Shown piece by piece: positions 53,350-64,000 of a stretch of DNA of 64,000 bases (the stretch's first letter is position 1; every line of letters starts with the position of its first letter). Source of the stretch: Curtobacterium aurantiacum (GTDB lineage: Bacteria; Actinomycetota; Actinomycetes; Actinomycetales; Microbacteriaceae); the NCBI RefSeq assembly GCF_018598555.1, contig NZ_JAHEWN010000005.1:1-64000 (forward strand). The letters are read 5' to 3'. Under the pieces are notes generated by a model. It did no database searches. It saw only the letters and a program-made list of their open reading frames with translations, and had not been told where the DNA came from. The position numbers and the translations under genes are program-made.

Positions 53350-53436
53350 GCGCGAGTGGCGGAATTGGTAGACGCGCACGGTTCAGGTCCGTGTGCTGGA
53401 AACGGCGTGGGGGTTCAAGTCCCCCCTCGCGCACCA
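53350..53436 (+). tRNA. tRNA-Leu (CAG)
   Basis: GCGCGAG pairs with CTCGCGC; the anticodon loop TTCAGGT reads CAG and a class-II long variable arm is present. Discriminator A (53433) is followed by encoded CCA. Confidence 0.97.
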
Positions 53437-55116: not shown

Positions 55117-57684
55117 ATGAGTGCAGAGCTGACGCTCGGCGCCGAGGAAGAGCTGCACCTCATCGACCTCGAGTCCGGACGACTTTCCGCGAAGGCCCCG
55201 CGCCTTCTGCCCAAACTGCCCACCGACCGCTTCGGCGCCGAACTGCAGCGCACGACGATCGAGACGAACACCCCCGTGGTGCGGACCCTGGATGACCTCC
55301 GGCGGGTGATCGTCGACCTGCGCAGTGAGCTCAGGGCCGCGATCGCCCCGGCCGGGGTCACCATCGCCGCCGTCGGCACCGCGCCGAGGTCGGAGTACGC
55401 CGACTTCGAGCTGAGCTCCGGCGGACGGTACGGCCGCATGCAGGAGCAGTACCGGATGCTCGTCGACGAACAGCTCATCTGCGGTCTGCAGGTGCACGTC
55501 GGGGTGAGCGACCGCGACCTGGCGGTGCTGATCGCCCAGCGGGTGGCGCCCGTGCTCCCGTCGCTGCTCGCACTGAGTGCATCGAGTCCGTTCTGGAACG
55601 GGCAGGACACCGGCTACGCGTCGTTCCGCAGCATCATCTGGCAGCGGTGGCCGTCGGCCGGCAGCTTCGGTCCGGTCGCGGACGCCGCCGAGTACGACCG
55701 GGTGCTCGACGACCTGATCGCCTCCGGGGTGATCGCCGACAAGAAGATGGCCTACTTCGACGTGCGGCCGTCGTCGCACGCGCCGACGCTCGAACTGCGG
55801 GTCTGCGACGCCACACCGGTGGTGGACGACGCCGTGCTCATCGCCGGACTCTTCCGCGCCGCGGTGCGCAGGGCCGAGAAGTCGGTCGAATCCGGCGCCG
55901 AGTGGCACCCGCGCAGCGAACCCCTGCACCGTGCGGCGATGTGGCAGGCCGCGCGCTCGGGGCTCAGCGGTGAGCTGGTCGGCCTCGGGCAGCACCCCGA
56001 GCGCCTGCCCGCCGAGGTCGCGGTGCGCCAGCTCGTCTCCCGCCTGCGCCCGGAACTCGAGGAGCTCGGCGACTGGGGCACGGTGACGGAGCTGCTGGAG
56101 GACACCCTGGCGCGCGGCAACTCCACCGACCGGCAGCGCACCGCCTACGCCGAGCGCGGGGAGCTCGACGACGTCGTCGCCCTGGTGGTCGAGGACACCG
56201 CGGGGCTCCCGTCCGGCCGCGACGAGGACCCGGTGGCCCCGATCCCGGGGTACCGCGTCCGTGCCGGTGACGAGGCGGTCGGACCGGGAGCCCGCCCACG
56301 CCCCGCGTTCCGTGCGCTCGCGACCTTCTTCAGCGGCTGGGACGCCCAGACCGCGATCGAGCGCTGCGCCGCCCGCGACGTCTGGACCCGTGAGCACCAC
56401 GTCGGCTTCGTGGTGGACGGTGGTGCGCAGGAGTTCGGATGCGACCTGGTGCCCCGGACGATCAGCGCGTACGAGTGGTCGCAGCTCGAGCGTGGCCTGG
56501 GGCAGCGTGCCCGTGCGATCGAACTGTTCCTGCGTGACGCGTACGGCGACCGGCGGATCGTGGCCGACGGCGTGCTGGACGCCGACCACTTCGTCGGCGC
56601 GAAGGGCTGGGACCCAGACGCTACCCGGCTGCCGGCGACGGCGGTCCGTGCGCCGGTGCTCGGGTTCGACCTGGTGCGCAACGAGTTCGGCGGCTGGCGG
56701 GTGCTCGAGGACAACGTCCGCTCGCCCTCGGGCGTCGCGTACGGCATCGCCCTGCGCGAGCTGATGGACGACGTCGTGCCGGACGCCCCGCGGCCGGCGC
56801 ACCTGCGCGACCCGCACGGCGTGACCGACCGGCTGTGCCGGACCCTCTGCGAGAACACCTCCGCGGTGACGGGCGCGGCCGACCCCGTGATCGCACTGGT
56901 CAGCGACGGCCCCGCCGCCGGCGCGTGGTTCGAGCACCGCAGGCTGGCCGACGGGGCCGGGATGCGCCTCCTGTCCGGGTCGGACCTGGACGTCCGTGAC
57001 GGACGCGTGGTCGACGCGACGACGGGTGACGTGCTCGACGGGCTGTACCTGCGGATCGACCGCGACGTCAGCGCGCTGACGGCGGAGCACGCTCCCGACC
57101 TGGGTGCCCGGATCCTCGACGCGGCGGAGGCAGGCCGCATCTACCTGGCGAACGCGCCGGGCAACGCGCTGGTCGACGACAAGGCGATGTACGTCACCGT
57201 GCCGGACCTGATCTGGTACTACCTGGACGAGAAACCCCTGCTGGCATCGGTGCCGACCTACCGCACGAGCATCGAGGTCGAACGGCTGTCGGTCCTCGAC
57301 CGCGTCGGGGAACTCGTCACGAAGCCGGTCGACGGCGAGGGCGGGCGCGGGGTCCTGATCGGACCGAGCGCGAGCGCCCCCGAGGTGGCCGAACGACGGC
57401 GCGAGATCGCCGCGGACCCCGCCGGGTGGGTGGGACAGGAGGTCGTGCAGCTGTCCTCGCACCCGACGATCGGACCGGCAGGTCTCGACCCGCGGCACGT
57501 GGACCTGCGGGCCTTCGTCTACGCGACGGGGACCGGGCCGGACGACGTGCACCTGGCCGACGTGGCGCTGACGCGCGTCGCGCCCGAGGGCAGCATGGTC
57601 GTCAACTCGTCGCAGGGTGGTGGCGTGAAGGACACGTGGATCGTGGGGACCGCTGGGGCCGGAGGCGACGGCGTGGGGCGGTGA
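55117..57684 (+). CDS. YbdK-type carboxylate-amine ligase fused to circularly permuted ATP-grasp
   Basis: The protein has 855 residues from ATG 55117. Residues 1-370 match the glutamate-cysteine ligase 2/YbdK family: TLGAEEELHLIDLESGRL, ETNTPVVRTLDDL, GLQVHVGV and the HxxRP-like FDVRPSSHAPTLELRV. Residues 400-840 match the circularly permuted type 2 ATP-grasp (DUF404/DUF407): AYEWSQLERGLGQRARAIE, FDLVRNEFGGWRVLEDN, VTKPVDGEGGRGVLIGP and VVNSSQGGGVKDTW. Both halves should form amide bonds with ATP. A peptide or amino-acid ligation role is predicted from the family; substrate unknown. Confidence 0.88.
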   Translation: MSAELTLGAEEELHLIDLESGRLSAKAPRLLPKLPTDRFGAELQRTTIETNTPVVRTLDDLRRVIVDLRSELRAAIAPAGVTIAAVGTAPRSEYADFELSSGGRYGRMQEQYRMLVDEQLICGLQVHVGVSDRDLAVLIAQRVAPVLPSLLALSASSPFWNGQDTGYASFRSIIWQRWPSAGSFGPVADAAEYDRVLDDLIASGVIADKKMAYFDVRPSSHAPTLELRVCDATPVVDDAVLIAGLFRAAVRRAEKSVESGAEWHPRSEPLHRAAMWQAARSGLSGELVGLGQHPERLPAEVAVRQLVSRLRPELEELGDWGTVTELLEDTLARGNSTDRQRTAYAERGELDDVVALVVEDTAGLPSGRDEDPVAPIPGYRVRAGDEAVGPGARPRPAFRALATFFSGWDAQTAIERCAARDVWTREHHVGFVVDGGAQEFGCDLVPRTISAYEWSQLERGLGQRARAIELFLRDAYGDRRIVADGVLDADHFVGAKGWDPDATRLPATAVRAPVLGFDLVRNEFGGWRVLEDNVRSPSGVAYGIALRELMDDVVPDAPRPAHLRDPHGVTDRLCRTLCENTSAVTGAADPVIALVSDGPAAGAWFEHRRLADGAGMRLLSGSDLDVRDGRVVDATTGDVLDGLYLRIDRDVSALTAEHAPDLGARILDAAEAGRIYLANAPGNALVDDKAMYVTVPDLIWYYLDEKPLLASVPTYRTSIEVERLSVLDRVGELVTKPVDGEGGRGVLIGPSASAPEVAERRREIAADPAGWVGQEVVQLSSHPTIGPAGLDPRHVDLRAFVYATGTGPDDVHLADVALTRVAPEGSMVVNSSQGGGVKDTWIVGTAGAGGDGVGR

Positions 57685-60430: not shown

Positions 60431-61147
60431 ATGTCCACGACCATGCCCGGCTTCGAGACGGAGCGCATCACGCAGCTCGGCCTGCGTGACCGCGTGTACG
60501 ACCGGGTGCTCGAGGTCCTGATGGGCCACGACGTCGAACCGGGCATGCGGCTGTCGATCGACGGCCTCGCCCGCAGTCTCGGGGTCTCGCCGACCCCGGT
60601 GCGCGAAGCCCTGGTGCAACTCGAACGCACCGGCCTCGTCACCCGTGAGGCGAACAAGGGCTACCGGGTCTCCCCGCCCCTGGCCGGTGACCAGCTCGAG
60701 GCCCTGTTCGACGCCCGGCTGATCGTGGAGAGCGGCGCCGTCGAGCTCGCGGCCCGCGGCGACGTCGACGGCCTGCGCGAGCGACTGGCAGCAGCGCTCG
60801 ACGAGCAGGCTGCGGTGGCCGCCGAGGTCGCGTCCGTCGGTGCTGCGCACGCGCCGGAGGAGCTGATGGCCCGCTTCTTCCGCAGCGACTGGCAGTTCCA
60901 CCAGCTGATCTTCGACGCGACACGGAACCCGTTCCTCGAGGAGATGTCCGAGATCATCACGACGCGCGTGCACCGCATGCGGCAGATCGTCGAGGGTGGC
61001 GGGGACGACACGGATCGTGCGGTCCAAGAACACCGGGCCATCCTGGAGGCGCTGGCTGCGGACCCGACGTCGGCCGTCGCCGCTATGCGGCTCCACATCG
61101 ACGCCGTCCGGTTGCGTTCGCGCGCGGACGCGTCCCACACGAGCTGA
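60431..61147 (+). CDS. GntR family (FCD domain) regulator
   Basis: The protein has 238 residues from ATG 60431. The winged helix contains LARSLGVSPTPVREALVQLE, the GntR signature, and the FCD ligand domain shows FDARLIVESGAVELAA, the RFFRSDWQFH metal/ligand region and HRAILEALAA. FadR-type GntR regulators sense organic acids or sugar acids. It lies just before a palindrome at 61183-61198 and the operon it probably controls. Confidence 0.9.
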   Translation: MSTTMPGFETERITQLGLRDRVYDRVLEVLMGHDVEPGMRLSIDGLARSLGVSPTPVREALVQLERTGLVTREANKGYRVSPPLAGDQLEALFDARLIVESGAVELAARGDVDGLRERLAAALDEQAAVAAEVASVGAAHAPEELMARFFRSDWQFHQLIFDATRNPFLEEMSEIITTRVHRMRQIVEGGGDDTDRAVQEHRAILEALAADPTSAVAAMRLHIDAVRLRSRADASHTS

Positions 61148-61157
61148 GGCAGAGGGG

Positions 61158-61185
61158 TTGCGTTCCAGCGTTGTGCGAGTATCTT
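61158..61185 (+). promoter_or_regulatory. Candidate promoter of the terminal operon
   Basis: TTGCGT (61158-61163) and TATCTT (61180-61185) are 16 bp apart. The operator palindrome overlaps the -10 box. Confidence 0.5.
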
Positions 61186-61198
61186 TCCTATAGGAAAG
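61183..61198. promoter_or_regulatory. Perfect operator palindrome for the GntR regulator
   Basis: CTTTCCTATAGGAAAG is a perfect 16-bp inverted repeat, 36 bp past gntR and 43 bp before the next gene. Its place over the -10 box suits repression by the adjacent regulator. Confidence 0.7.
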
Positions 61199-61240
61199 AG
61201 GTTCAAGGCTGAACCACCACGACATGCAAAGGAGCATTCC

Positions 61241-62263
61241 GTGACCACTCCACAGGACTGGGTCGACCAGGATTGGGACCCCACCACCTGGACGTCGGAG
61301 ACCTGGCCGATCGCGGCCTGCCTGCACGGGTTCGCGCAGGTCACCCGCGACGGGACGGCCTTCCACGACGCCCCCGCCGAGGTGTGGGACGAGGTGTTCG
61401 GGCAGATCGAGGCCGTCGGTTTCTCGCTCGCCGAACTCGCCGACAGCCACATCCGCCCCGCTGACCTCGAAGCCTCGCGCCGCGACGAGCTGTTCGCCGT
61501 CGCGAAGTCGCACGGCATCGGGATTCCCTCGGTGCACCTGCAGCGCAAGAGCGTCATCCAGCCCGGGCACGAGGACGAGAACCTGGCCTACGCCCACCGC
61601 ACCATCGACGCGGCGGCCGAGTGGGGCATGCAGGTCTTCTCGACGGGGCTGCACCAGCCGTTCACCGACGCCCAGAAGCGGGCGCTCTGGTTCTGGACGG
61701 CGCCGGGCCCGAAGGACCCCGACGACCCCGAGGTCTGGAACGCCGCGGTCAAGCGACTGCGGGAGCTCGGCGAGCACGCTGCGAGCGTCGGGCTGCCGAT
61801 GGCGCTCGAGCTGTACGAGGACACGTACCTCGGCACCGCCGACAGTGCGGTCCGCCTGGTCGAGGAGATCGGGCTCGACAACGTCGGGCTGAACGCGGAC
61901 GTCGCGAACCTCATCCGTCTGCACCGTCCGGTCGAGGACTGGCGGGAGCTGTTCGCGAAGACCATGCCGCACACGAACTACCTGCACGTGAAGAACTACA
62001 CGCGTGACGAGGCCGGCGACGGCAGCTGGGCGACGAGCGCGCCGAGCACCATGGAGACGGGCCTCATCAACTACCGCCAGGTCCTGCGCGAGGCCGTCGC
62101 CGACGGGTTCCGCGGGATCGTCATGACCGAGCAGTACGGCGGGGACAGCCTCGGCGTCTGCGCCACCAACCAGCAGTACATCCGATCCGTCCTCGCGACG
62201 ACGAAGCTCGACGCGACGGCGACCCCGACTGCAGCAACCAGCACCGAAGGAGCAATCCGATGA
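61241..62263 (+). CDS. Xylose isomerase-like TIM-barrel protein
   Basis: The protein has 340 residues from GTG 61241, preceded by AAAGGAG. GIGIPSVHLQRKSV, LPMALELYEDTYLG, NVGLNADVANLIRL and YLHVKNYTRD supply the metal-binding Glu, Asp and His residues of the sugar phosphate isomerase/epimerase fold. It probably isomerises or epimerises a sugar or sugar acid. It is first in a GntR-controlled operon and overlaps the next gene by four bases. Confidence 0.85.
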   Translation: MTTPQDWVDQDWDPTTWTSETWPIAACLHGFAQVTRDGTAFHDAPAEVWDEVFGQIEAVGFSLAELADSHIRPADLEASRRDELFAVAKSHGIGIPSVHLQRKSVIQPGHEDENLAYAHRTIDAAAEWGMQVFSTGLHQPFTDAQKRALWFWTAPGPKDPDDPEVWNAAVKRLRELGEHAASVGLPMALELYEDTYLGTADSAVRLVEEIGLDNVGLNADVANLIRLHRPVEDWRELFAKTMPHTNYLHVKNYTRDEAGDGSWATSAPSTMETGLINYRQVLREAVADGFRGIVMTEQYGGDSLGVCATNQQYIRSVLATTKLDATATPTAATSTEGAIR

Positions 62264-63213
62264 GCACCCTCGACATCGCCGTCGTCGGGTCCGGCTACAT
62301 GGGCGGCGGGATCGCCCAGGTCCTCGCCCTCGCTGGCCACACCGTCCGGATCGCCGACGTCTCGGCCGAGATCGCCCAGCAGAACCTGGAGCGGCTGCTC
62401 GGCGAGACCGCACAGTTCGTCGCCGACGGGCTGTTCCCCGAGGACGCCGTCGAACGGGTCCGCGCACACCTGAGCGCTGCCGAGTCGATCGAGGCCGCCG
62501 TCGCCGACGCCGACTTCATCGAGGAGGCCGTGCCCGAGAAGCTCGAGATCAAGCACGCCACGCTCCGCCGCATCAGCGAGGCCGCCCGCCCCGACGCCGT
62601 GATCGGCTCGAACACCTCGACGATCCTGATCGAGTCGCTGGCCGAGGCGGTCGTGGGCCCGGAGCGGTTCCTCGGCGTGCACTTCTCGAACCCTGCACCG
62701 TTCATCCCCGGCGTCGAGCTCATCCCGCACCCGACCACGAACGAGCACGCGATCGAGGTCGGCGAGGCCGTCGTCGCCGCGACCGGCAAGCAGTCGGCGC
62801 GGGTGAAGGACTCGACCGGGTTCGTCCTGAACCGCCTGCAGTACGCGCTGTTCGAGGAGGCCACGAAGATCGCCGACGAGGGCATCGCGAGCCCCGACGA
62901 CATCGACACCATCGTGCGGACCACGTTCGGGTTCCGCCTGCCGTTCTTCGGTCCGTTCGCGATCGCCGACATGGCCGGGCTCGACGTCTACGCGTTCTGC
63001 TTCGAGTCGCTGCAGACCCGCTGGCCCGAGCGCTTCGCCACCCCGCCGTCGCTGCAGCAGCACGTCGACGCCGGTGAGCTCGGCACGAAGTCGGGCGCCG
63101 GGTACCTCGAGGTGCCGGCCGACCGCACGCCCGAGCTCGTGGCCTACCGGAACAAGGCGTACGTGGCGATGCAGAAGCTCCTCGACGAGCTCGGCCCGGC
63201 ACCGATCCACTGA
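62260..63213 (+). CDS. 3-hydroxyacyl-CoA dehydrogenase family NAD-dependent oxidoreductase
   Basis: The protein has 317 residues. VVGSGYMGGGIAQVLALAGH binds NAD and EEAVPEKLEIKHATLRRI, GSNTSTILI and NRLQYALFEEA are HCDH motifs. It may act on a 3-hydroxyacyl-CoA or, like gulonate dehydrogenases of this family, on a sugar acid. Context with a TIM-barrel isomerase favours the latter. It overlaps the preceding stop by four bases. Confidence 0.86.
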   Translation: MSTLDIAVVGSGYMGGGIAQVLALAGHTVRIADVSAEIAQQNLERLLGETAQFVADGLFPEDAVERVRAHLSAAESIEAAVADADFIEEAVPEKLEIKHATLRRISEAARPDAVIGSNTSTILIESLAEAVVGPERFLGVHFSNPAPFIPGVELIPHPTTNEHAIEVGEAVVAATGKQSARVKDSTGFVLNRLQYALFEEATKIADEGIASPDDIDTIVRTTFGFRLPFFGPFAIADMAGLDVYAFCFESLQTRWPERFATPPSLQQHVDAGELGTKSGAGYLEVPADRTPELVAYRNKAYVAMQKLLDELGPAPIH

Positions 63214-63229
63214 GCCCGGAGCACGAACC

Positions 63230-64000
63230 ATGAGCACGCAGAACCAGTCAGCCGGCCAGCACCAGGACCGCACCGTCGTCCTCACCGGGGCCGCCTCACC
63301 GCGGGGCATCGGCCGCGCCACCGCCCACCACCTGGCCGAGGCCGGGTGGGACGTCGGGATCATCGACCTCGACCAGACGGCGAGCGAGCAGGTCGCCGCC
63401 GAGATCCGCGAACAGCACGGCGTGCGGGCGGTCGGTGTCGGGGCGAACGTCGCCGACGAGTCCGCCGTCCGCGCGGCCTTCGACACGATCGAGGCCGAAC
63501 TCCGGCCGATCACCGCACTGGTGAACCTGGCCGGGGTCTCGTCCGCGCACGCCTACCTCGACCTGCCCGAGGGGGAGTGGCACCGGGTGCTGTCGATCAA
63601 CCTCGACGGCGTGCACTTCGCCAGCCTGCGGGCGGCGGAGTCGATGGCGCGGTCCGGCTACGGGCGCATCGTGAACCTGTCGTCGGTCTCCGCCCAGCGC
63701 GGCGGCGGCACCTTCAGCAAGACCCCGTACACGGTGGCGAAGGCCGGCGTGATCGGCCTGACCCGTGGCCTGGCGCGCGAGCTCGGCCCGCGCGGCGTCA
63801 CCGTCAACGCGATCGCGCCCGGTCCGATCGACACCGACATCATGGGCGGCACCCTGTCCGAGGAGCGGAAGGCCGAGATGGCCGCCGACGGCGTACTGCC
63901 GCGCATCGGCACCCCGCGGGACATCGCTGCCGCCATCGCGTACCTGATCAGCGAGGACGCCGGGTTCGTCACGGGCCAGACGCTCAACGTCGACGGCGGC
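63230..64000 (+). CDS. SDR family oxidoreductase, truncated by window edge
   Basis: At least 257 residues are visible from ATG 63230; the 3' end is outside the window. VVLTGAASPRGIGRATAHHL binds NAD(P), NLAGVSSAH is the NxAG element and YTVAKAGVIGL holds the catalytic Tyr/Lys. IAPGPIDTDI and the closing GQTLNVDGG complete the 3-oxoacyl-ACP-reductase-like type. It likely oxidises a hydroxy substrate made by this operon. Confidence 0.85.
   Translation, partial: MSTQNQSAGQHQDRTVVLTGAASPRGIGRATAHHLAEAGWDVGIIDLDQTASEQVAAEIREQHGVRAVGVGANVADESAVRAAFDTIEAELRPITALVNLAGVSSAHAYLDLPEGEWHRVLSINLDGVHFASLRAAESMARSGYGRIVNLSSVSAQRGGGTFSKTPYTVAKAGVIGLTRGLARELGPRGVTVNAIAPGPIDTDIMGGTLSEERKAEMAADGVLPRIGTPRDIAAAIAYLISEDAGFVTGQTLNVDGG

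Follow-up and report, generated by a model that had tools for sequence, protein, structure and literature searches.

A GntR-linked operon of Curtobacterium aurantiacum that may break down a C5 sugar acid via L-erythrulose

The stretch of DNA analyzed here (the window) comprises 64,000 nucleotides from Curtobacterium aurantiacum and is the start of a 196,434-bp contig (G000:C31:1-64000). From position 60431 onward it carries an operon with a gene for a GntR-family regulator at its head, which the original prediction had assigned to a sugar or a sugar acid. Judged from its sequence and that of its relatives, it is about an even chance that this operon breaks down a C5 sugar acid via L-erythrulose into central metabolism. 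It is regarded as a putative new variant of known sugar-acid pathways.

Gene content of the operon and the proposed route

The four open reading frames that the operon had been predicted to contain were found at the expected positions, and their Pfam matches were above cut-off. All four are on the forward strand. The first one encodes the regulator (60431-61147, 238 aa), which fits the FCD subgroup of the GntR family, with an N-terminal GntR winged helix (3.1e-14) and a C-terminal FCD effector domain (1.6e-21), both above cut-off. It is followed by a gene with a GTG start for an AP_endonuc_2 (xylose-isomerase-like) triosephosphate isomerase (TIM) barrel (61241-62263, 340 aa, 9e-24), for which a role as 3-oxo acid decarboxylase is proposed. 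The next gene encodes a 3-hydroxyacyl-CoA-dehydrogenase (HCDH)-family oxidoreductase (62260-63213, 317 aa; 3HCDH_N 6.2e-49, 3HCDH 3.5e-22), the proposed sugar-acid C3 dehydrogenase. The fourth gene encodes a short-chain dehydrogenase/reductase (SDR) of 261 aa (adh_short_C2 1e-62), which starts at 63230. The operon had been taken to end at 64000, but the window truncates it inside the SDR gene, which extends to 64015 (L006:4230-5015). The continuation was read in locus L006 (C31:59001-79000), and three further genes follow there, encoding an MFS permease, a fused DhaK-DhaL kinase and a TIM homologue, so that the operon has seven genes. The tight packing was borne out: gntR is followed by a spacing of 93 bp, and the next spacings are -4, +16, +120, -4 and -4 bp. 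The best NCBIfam match of the permease was a D-galactonate transporter, below the cut-off (272 bits versus 395). Also the TIM barrel, the HCDH protein and the SDR were below the curated cut-offs among the NCBIfam matches listed, which for the SDR were the best 25 of 228 families; its score against the GolD/DthD model was 155 versus a cut-off of 286. No match to the PADLOC models was found for the TIM-barrel and HCDH proteins.

In the proposed route, the permease would bring the sugar acid into the cell, the HCDH-family enzyme would oxidize the C3 hydroxyl group to yield a 3-oxo acid, and the TIM barrel would act as a metal-dependent decarboxylase that converts the 3-oxo acid to L-erythrulose. 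The following steps are suggested by family matches. The DhaK-DhaL kinase would form L-erythrulose 1-phosphate, the TIM-like isomerase would form D-erythrulose 4-phosphate, and an RpiB-like isomerase, which is encoded elsewhere in this genome and within the cluster in many relatives, would yield erythrose 4-phosphate. The SDR might, as a guess, act on a related substrate or on a stereoisomer as an accessory oxidoreductase. The regulator would bind to the conserved site TCCTATAGGA and repress the operon until a pathway metabolite is present. Because the loss of CO2 leaves a C4 ketose, the acid would have to be a C5 acid. The likeliest substrates are pentonates with the L configuration at C4, i.e., L-arabonate, L-xylonate, L-lyxonate and L-ribonate, which are favored because the chemistry of the HCDH protein and the TIM barrel would turn them into L-erythrulose.

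The permeases encoded beside the TIM barrel are of acid types, namely the D-galactonate-like MFS permease, GntP permeases (L096, L065) and a tripartite tricarboxylate transporter (L061-L063). Based on the type of permease, the DhaK-DhaL kinase, the TIM-like isomerase and the RpiB of the relatives, the original prediction could be narrowed to a sugar acid, probably a C5 acid, and the plain sugar was dropped. Its statement that the enzyme set fits no standard pathway that could be named was upheld. It is quite possible, with the balance leaning slightly the other way, that pentonates are degraded here by C3 oxidation with an HCDH enzyme and decarboxylation with a xylose-isomerase-like TIM barrel to erythrulose, entering metabolism as erythrose 4-phosphate plus CO2 without a dehydration. 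A literature search, the coverage of which excluded most subscription journals, found no description of such a pentonate route and no recognized paper on the operon. If the route exists, plant-associated actinobacteria would gain another general path for pentonic acids, in which one carbon is lost and erythrose 4-phosphate is formed. The breakdown of ascorbate in plants yields 2-oxo-L-threo-pentonate, according to PMC6225978. It is conceivable, as a speculation, that ascorbate breakdown is the plant source and that the SDR could be a reductase of this compound.

Two other assignments were considered. A role in fatty-acid or acyl-CoA metabolism was rejected, as no thiolase, ligase or hydratase domain was found among the seven operon genes. 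A polyol operon was judged less likely in view of the acid-type permease and because a Zn-dependent dehydrogenase is encoded together with DAK and RpiB in another unit, at G000:C11. The sequence of the SDR is still compatible with a polyol dehydrogenase, which it may be. The unit at G000:C11 (L100:9774-15552) is a third DAK/RpiB unit and contains an MFS gene, the Zn-dependent dehydrogenase and an SDR, similar to a tetritol operon.

Conservation of the gene set and of the probable operator

Locus L006 and 51 further loci were compared, many of them from close Curtobacterium relatives and thus not independent. Homologues were scored irrespective of their position in the locus, at identity thresholds of 35-55% depending on the gene. 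Contig ends truncate some of the loci; L018 and L025 stop before the TIM homologue. Among these 52 loci, homologues of the TIM barrel were present in 52, of the HCDH protein in 51, of the SDR in 49, of the regulator in 48 (at least 36% identity), of the permease in 47, of the kinase in 46, of the TIM homologue in 40 and of RpiB in 22. The six loci without the kinase were L027, L038, L047, L049, L054 and L057. The kinase gene lies within the operon behind the MFS gene in 30 loci, all from Curtobacterium or near relatives. A different arrangement was seen in three Rathayibacter loci, three Plantibacter loci and five of the eight Sinomonas loci, i.e., two convergent arms with the orders TIM barrel-HCDH-SDR-MFS and kinase-RpiB-TIM homologue-GntR. 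The three two-arm Rathayibacter loci gave no match for the TIM homologue. All eight genes are kept in L064, L097 and L098, which are from more distant genomes. In L096, the order TIM barrel-HCDH-GntP permease lies opposite to kinase-RpiB-TIM homologue. Three rhizobial plasmids (L061-L063) have the order PdxA homologue-tripartite transporter-TIM barrel-kinase, and a Streptomyces plasmid has TIM barrel-kinase-RpiB-GntP-HIBADH homologue; plasmid surroundings were read for 5 of the 98 records with a match. These distant clusters indicate that the TIM barrel, the DhaK-DhaL kinase and an acid-type permease recur, while the dehydrogenase varies.

The HCDH gene was detected at E <=1e-100 in 45 of 66 Curtobacterium genomes, including that of the window. 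A search across 396 genomes of the phylum gave a TIM-barrel match in 48, and in four of these (G000, G257, G008, G074) the identity was at least 40% over most of the length. The matches in the remaining genomes were short and of the general AP_endonuc_2 type. In L034 (6511-8909) and L047 (3178-5678), a GH39-family gene, an aldo/keto reductase gene and ABC-transporter-like genes adjoin the cluster; the GH39 and aldo/keto reductase families were searched for in L034, and L047 appeared alike by eye. The substrate may be derived from a glycoside there.

The perfect 16-bp palindrome CTTTCCTATAGGAAAG was found at 61183-61198, where it had been located before, and is a probable operator. It is the sole match in the window at up to three mismatches (0.01 expected), and TTTCCTATAGGAAA occurs once in the genome at up to two mismatches. 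The repeat finder required arms of at least 12 bases and therefore missed the palindrome. It had also been proposed that a promoter overlaps the palindrome; this was not borne out by a scan with the sigma-70 consensus, which gave 0 promoter sites. In 45 of the 52 loci, the core TCCTATAGGA (61186-61195) was present in the 250 bp preceding the TIM-barrel gene; allowing one mismatch raised this number to 48 and left L036, L047, L049 and L054 without it. Where the kinase gene forms a unit of its own (16 loci), the core precedes it in 14, or in 15 if one mismatch is permitted; where the kinase gene sits inside the operon (30 loci), the core precedes it in none. Altogether, 61 exact copies of the core were found in 1.03 Mb, and 59 of them precede a TIM-barrel gene or a separate kinase gene. 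The other two precede a further MFS gene in L043 and, by a parallel match, in L045. Among 10,400 stretches of 270 bp drawn at random from these loci, 189 contained the core, true sites included, and shuffled upstream regions equalled the exact-site match in 0-1 of 200 cases.

The motif WTCCTATAGGAW was used to scan 12 genomes or records that had been chosen because they hold the cluster. There were 24 sites, and the reversed control gave 0. By their coordinates, 11 sites precede the TIM-barrel gene, nine the kinase gene and two another MFS gene, the family of which was checked for L126 alone; of the remaining two, one precedes gntR (L064) and one an L-fuconate-dehydratase-like gene (L124). The exact core was absent from the tested regions of the rhizobial clusters, L065, L099 and L100. 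The sites in front of both arms are strong evidence that the TIM-barrel arm and the kinase arm form one regulon. From the co-conservation of the site with the genes we infer that the GntR protein probably binds to the palindrome. The operator has enough specificity to serve as a probe for more genes of the pathway; if the route is correct, the class of ligand would also be known for an FCD regulator whose operator is TCCTATAGGA. In Sinomonas humi (L124:7192-10167), the L-fuconate-dehydratase-like gene behind the operator is followed by an aldehyde dehydrogenase gene. This site is a hint that the regulon may have a second branch, one with a dehydration; coming from a single genome, it is not decisive for the substrate.

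The TIM-barrel and HCDH-family proteins

The best match of the TIM barrel in the PDB was 5TNV (1.7e-77), a protein from Mycobacterium smegmatis whose entry title names no function. The structural model could be superimposed on 5TNV with a Z of 32.1 and a root-mean-square deviation of 2.8 over 286 aligned residues. The model quality was moderate (predicted local distance difference test, pLDDT, 75.7), and the loops 150-158 and 253-274 were mostly below 50. The TIM barrel of L096 also resembles 5TNV, as judged by eye. The residues E190, D220, H249 and E297, which by analogy we take to be metal ligands, were invariant in 14 of 14 TIM barrels. The same is true for six arginines, which suggests a set that would fit a carboxylate ligand. 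The TIM barrel of the original prediction was confirmed by Pfam, but the protein, labeled an isomerase there, may be a decarboxylase instead. If so, a testable reaction could be assigned to the family of 5TNV.

The protein shares the fold and the four presumed metal ligands with the AP_endonuc_2 ketose 3-epimerases. It might be a 3-epimerase or an aldose-ketose isomerase, CO2 being lost from the 3-oxo acid spontaneously or on the dehydrogenase, and would then interconvert D- and L-erythrulose or a related sugar. Such a role would be in accord with the nearest folds after 5TNV, which are mostly ketose 3-epimerases (Z about 24) and include 5H1W (Z 22.5), which was solved with L-erythrulose, and with the conservation of both glutamates of the presumed metal site. 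PdxA homologues catalyze oxidation and decarboxylation in one step, and it is PdxA homologues that replace the HCDH protein in the three rhizobial clusters read. However, the identity to epimerases is only 13-19%, the score against the NCBIfam model for D-psicose 3-epimerase is 25 bits versus a cut-off of 300, and the invariant arginines suggest an acid as ligand. An epimerase or isomerase is therefore unlikely, although it is the strongest of the alternatives considered.

In the HCDH-family protein, S120, H141, E153 and N191, presumably the catalytic Ser/His/Glu/Asn of the HCDH fold, were invariant in 10 of 10 sequences. The sequence matches of the protein are compatible with a CoA ester as well as with a free sugar acid as its substrate. 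HCDH enzymes oxidize beta-hydroxy acids. In L-gulonate metabolism, an HCDH-type 3-dehydrogenase (CRYL1) is followed by a beta-keto-acid decarboxylase (DUF1907) that yields a ketose, as described in PMC12435205. The proposed route resembles it in the 3HCDH-type C3 oxidation of a sugar acid and the subsequent decarboxylation to a ketose, but the decarboxylase there belongs to DUF1907 and the acid has six carbons, in contrast to the TIM barrel and the C5 acid proposed here. If the proposal is correct, a testable reaction could also be assigned to a group of HCDH enzymes otherwise named after acyl-CoA substrates.

The putative erythrulose module and related pathways

The kinase is a fused Dak1-Dak2 protein that was above the cut-off for the general DAK family only and below that for dihydroxyacetone kinase. 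The TIM homologue was below every listed NCBIfam cut-off for triosephosphate isomerase, and its second-best PDB match was an L-erythrulose-1-phosphate isomerase. The genome contains another triosephosphate isomerase, 39% alike, after a pgk-like gene (by eye), and two adjoining matches for separate DhaK and DhaL. RpiB homologues (72-76%) are encoded at two other places, each beside another DhaK-DhaL kinase. LerK, LerI and DerI reportedly form a module for tetritols and L-erythrulose (Huang, 2015). They convert L-erythrulose to erythrose 4-phosphate, and LerI and DerI are functional in E. coli, as stated in PMC10733421. Here, too, a fused DhaK-DhaL kinase, a TIM-like isomerase and, in relatives, an RpiB-like isomerase occur in one cluster, and the kinase and the TIM homologue are distinct from the separate DhaK/DhaL and from the housekeeping triosephosphate isomerase. 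Unlike the known module, which is fed by a polyol dehydrogenase, the one here would be fed by a sugar acid via the HCDH protein and the TIM barrel, and the window operon has no RpiB-like isomerase gene of its own. The L form of erythrulose is favored, since D-erythrulose would not require the TIM homologue.

As the kinase and the isomerase belong to the dihydroxyacetone kinase and triosephosphate isomerase superfamilies, the substrate might also be a C4 acid, i.e., L-threonate or D-erythronate. The HCDH protein would then form 3-oxotetronate, the TIM barrel dihydroxyacetone, and an ordinary dihydroxyacetone kinase and triosephosphate isomerase would follow. Known tetronate pathways use DUF1537 kinases and L-threonate dehydrogenase; they share with the proposed route an oxidation, a decarboxylation and the entry as a phosphoketose, but neither a DUF1537 kinase nor an HIBADH-type dehydrogenase is among the seven operon genes. 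In line with a C4 acid, the cluster of L041 is adjoined by genes for a DUF1537-type kinase and an L-threonate-dehydrogenase-like protein (249 bits versus 350), L055 looks the same by eye, and a gene in L049 has a weak match to D-threonate kinase (69 versus 450). However, RpiB is needless for dihydroxyacetone yet present in 22 of the 52 loci, and the kinase and the TIM homologue are below the equivalog cut-offs of enzymes of which the genome has separate versions. A C4 acid is thus considered improbable.

D-apionate is an acid that feeds the same kinase-isomerase module. Its catabolism with OiaC, ApnO, LerK, LerI and DerI was reportedly described by Carter in 2018, and the pathway has a PGDH_C-type oxidoisomerase in the operon. 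The likeness lies in an AP_endonuc_2 TIM barrel and a dehydrogenase together with the L-erythrulose module; the difference is that the window operon has an HCDH protein instead of a PGDH_C-type protein, which was found in none of its seven genes. Such a cluster is present at G000:C15 (L099:5880-12097) and encodes an MFS permease, a DhaK-DhaL kinase, RpiB, a TIM homologue, an AP_endonuc_2 TIM barrel and one PGDH_C protein, a layout that we take to represent the route from D-apionate to L-erythrulose. The TIM barrels of the two clusters match in part (32% over 146 residues).

A kinase tree was calculated with 36 of 54 extracted kinases, in which L065, L096 and L100 formed long branches. The part relied on here is one clade (100/100) of the 13 sampled Curtobacterium operon kinases and the kinase of G000:C15, within which the latter was poorly placed. 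The kinases of Rathayibacter, Plantibacter, Sinomonas, Frondihabitans, L098 and one Curtobacterium (L036) formed a separate clade. Given these two clades, the kinase typical of Curtobacterium may have come by recruitment from a cluster of the C15 type. The tree of triosephosphate isomerases was weak at its base.

The common kinase clade and the shared module, together with the occurrence of apiose as a plant cell-wall sugar, would be in accord with the window operon being a variant D-apiose/D-apionate pathway, in which the HCDH protein and the SDR replace the known apionate oxidoisomerase and apiose dehydrogenase. This is very unlikely, however, since the genome already has the separate PGDH_C and AP_endonuc_2 cluster, which fits the known apionate route, and since the hydroxyl group at C3 of apionate is tertiary and could not be oxidized to a ketone by an HCDH-type enzyme.

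Several observations weigh against the route from a C5 acid via L-erythrulose. The fold neighbors of the TIM barrel after 5TNV are mostly sugar 3-epimerases or isomerases, with no named decarboxylase among those listed, and the HCDH protein has CoA-linked enzymes as its best PDB matches. Oxidation is not carried out by the same enzyme in all clusters, as the PdxA homologue on the rhizobial plasmids or the HIBADH homologue on the Streptomyces plasmid replaces the HCDH protein, and L027 retains only the regulator, the TIM barrel and the HCDH protein. For the TIM homologue, 3S6D was the best PDB match, an entry with the name of a putative triosephosphate isomerase. The window operon is without an RpiB gene, and the RpiB homologue scores above the cut-off for ribose-5-phosphate isomerase (202 versus 168) and below that for the rhizobial D-erythrulose-4-phosphate isomerase (135 versus 240). 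Kinase and RpiB without the TIM homologue, as found in four of the 52 loci (L032, L033, L035 and L036) and in L065, would suffice for D-erythrulose, which weakens the assignment of the L form. Curtobacterium citreum Ery-28b, one of two isolates on tetroses, could not use L-erythrulose, as reported in PMC12780249. According to the same paper, Curtobacterium citreum Eru-6 was isolated on L-erythrulose, and the authors call the proteins involved unknown; the pathway proposed here may bear on this growth.

Past the operon, two genes on the opposite strand resemble a two-component system by eye. Elsewhere in the window, an open reading frame of 855 aa (55117-57684) resembles, again by eye, a fusion of a GCS2-type carboxylate-amine ligase with an ATP-grasp-like protein, and a tRNA-Leu (CAG) gene is located at 53350-53436.

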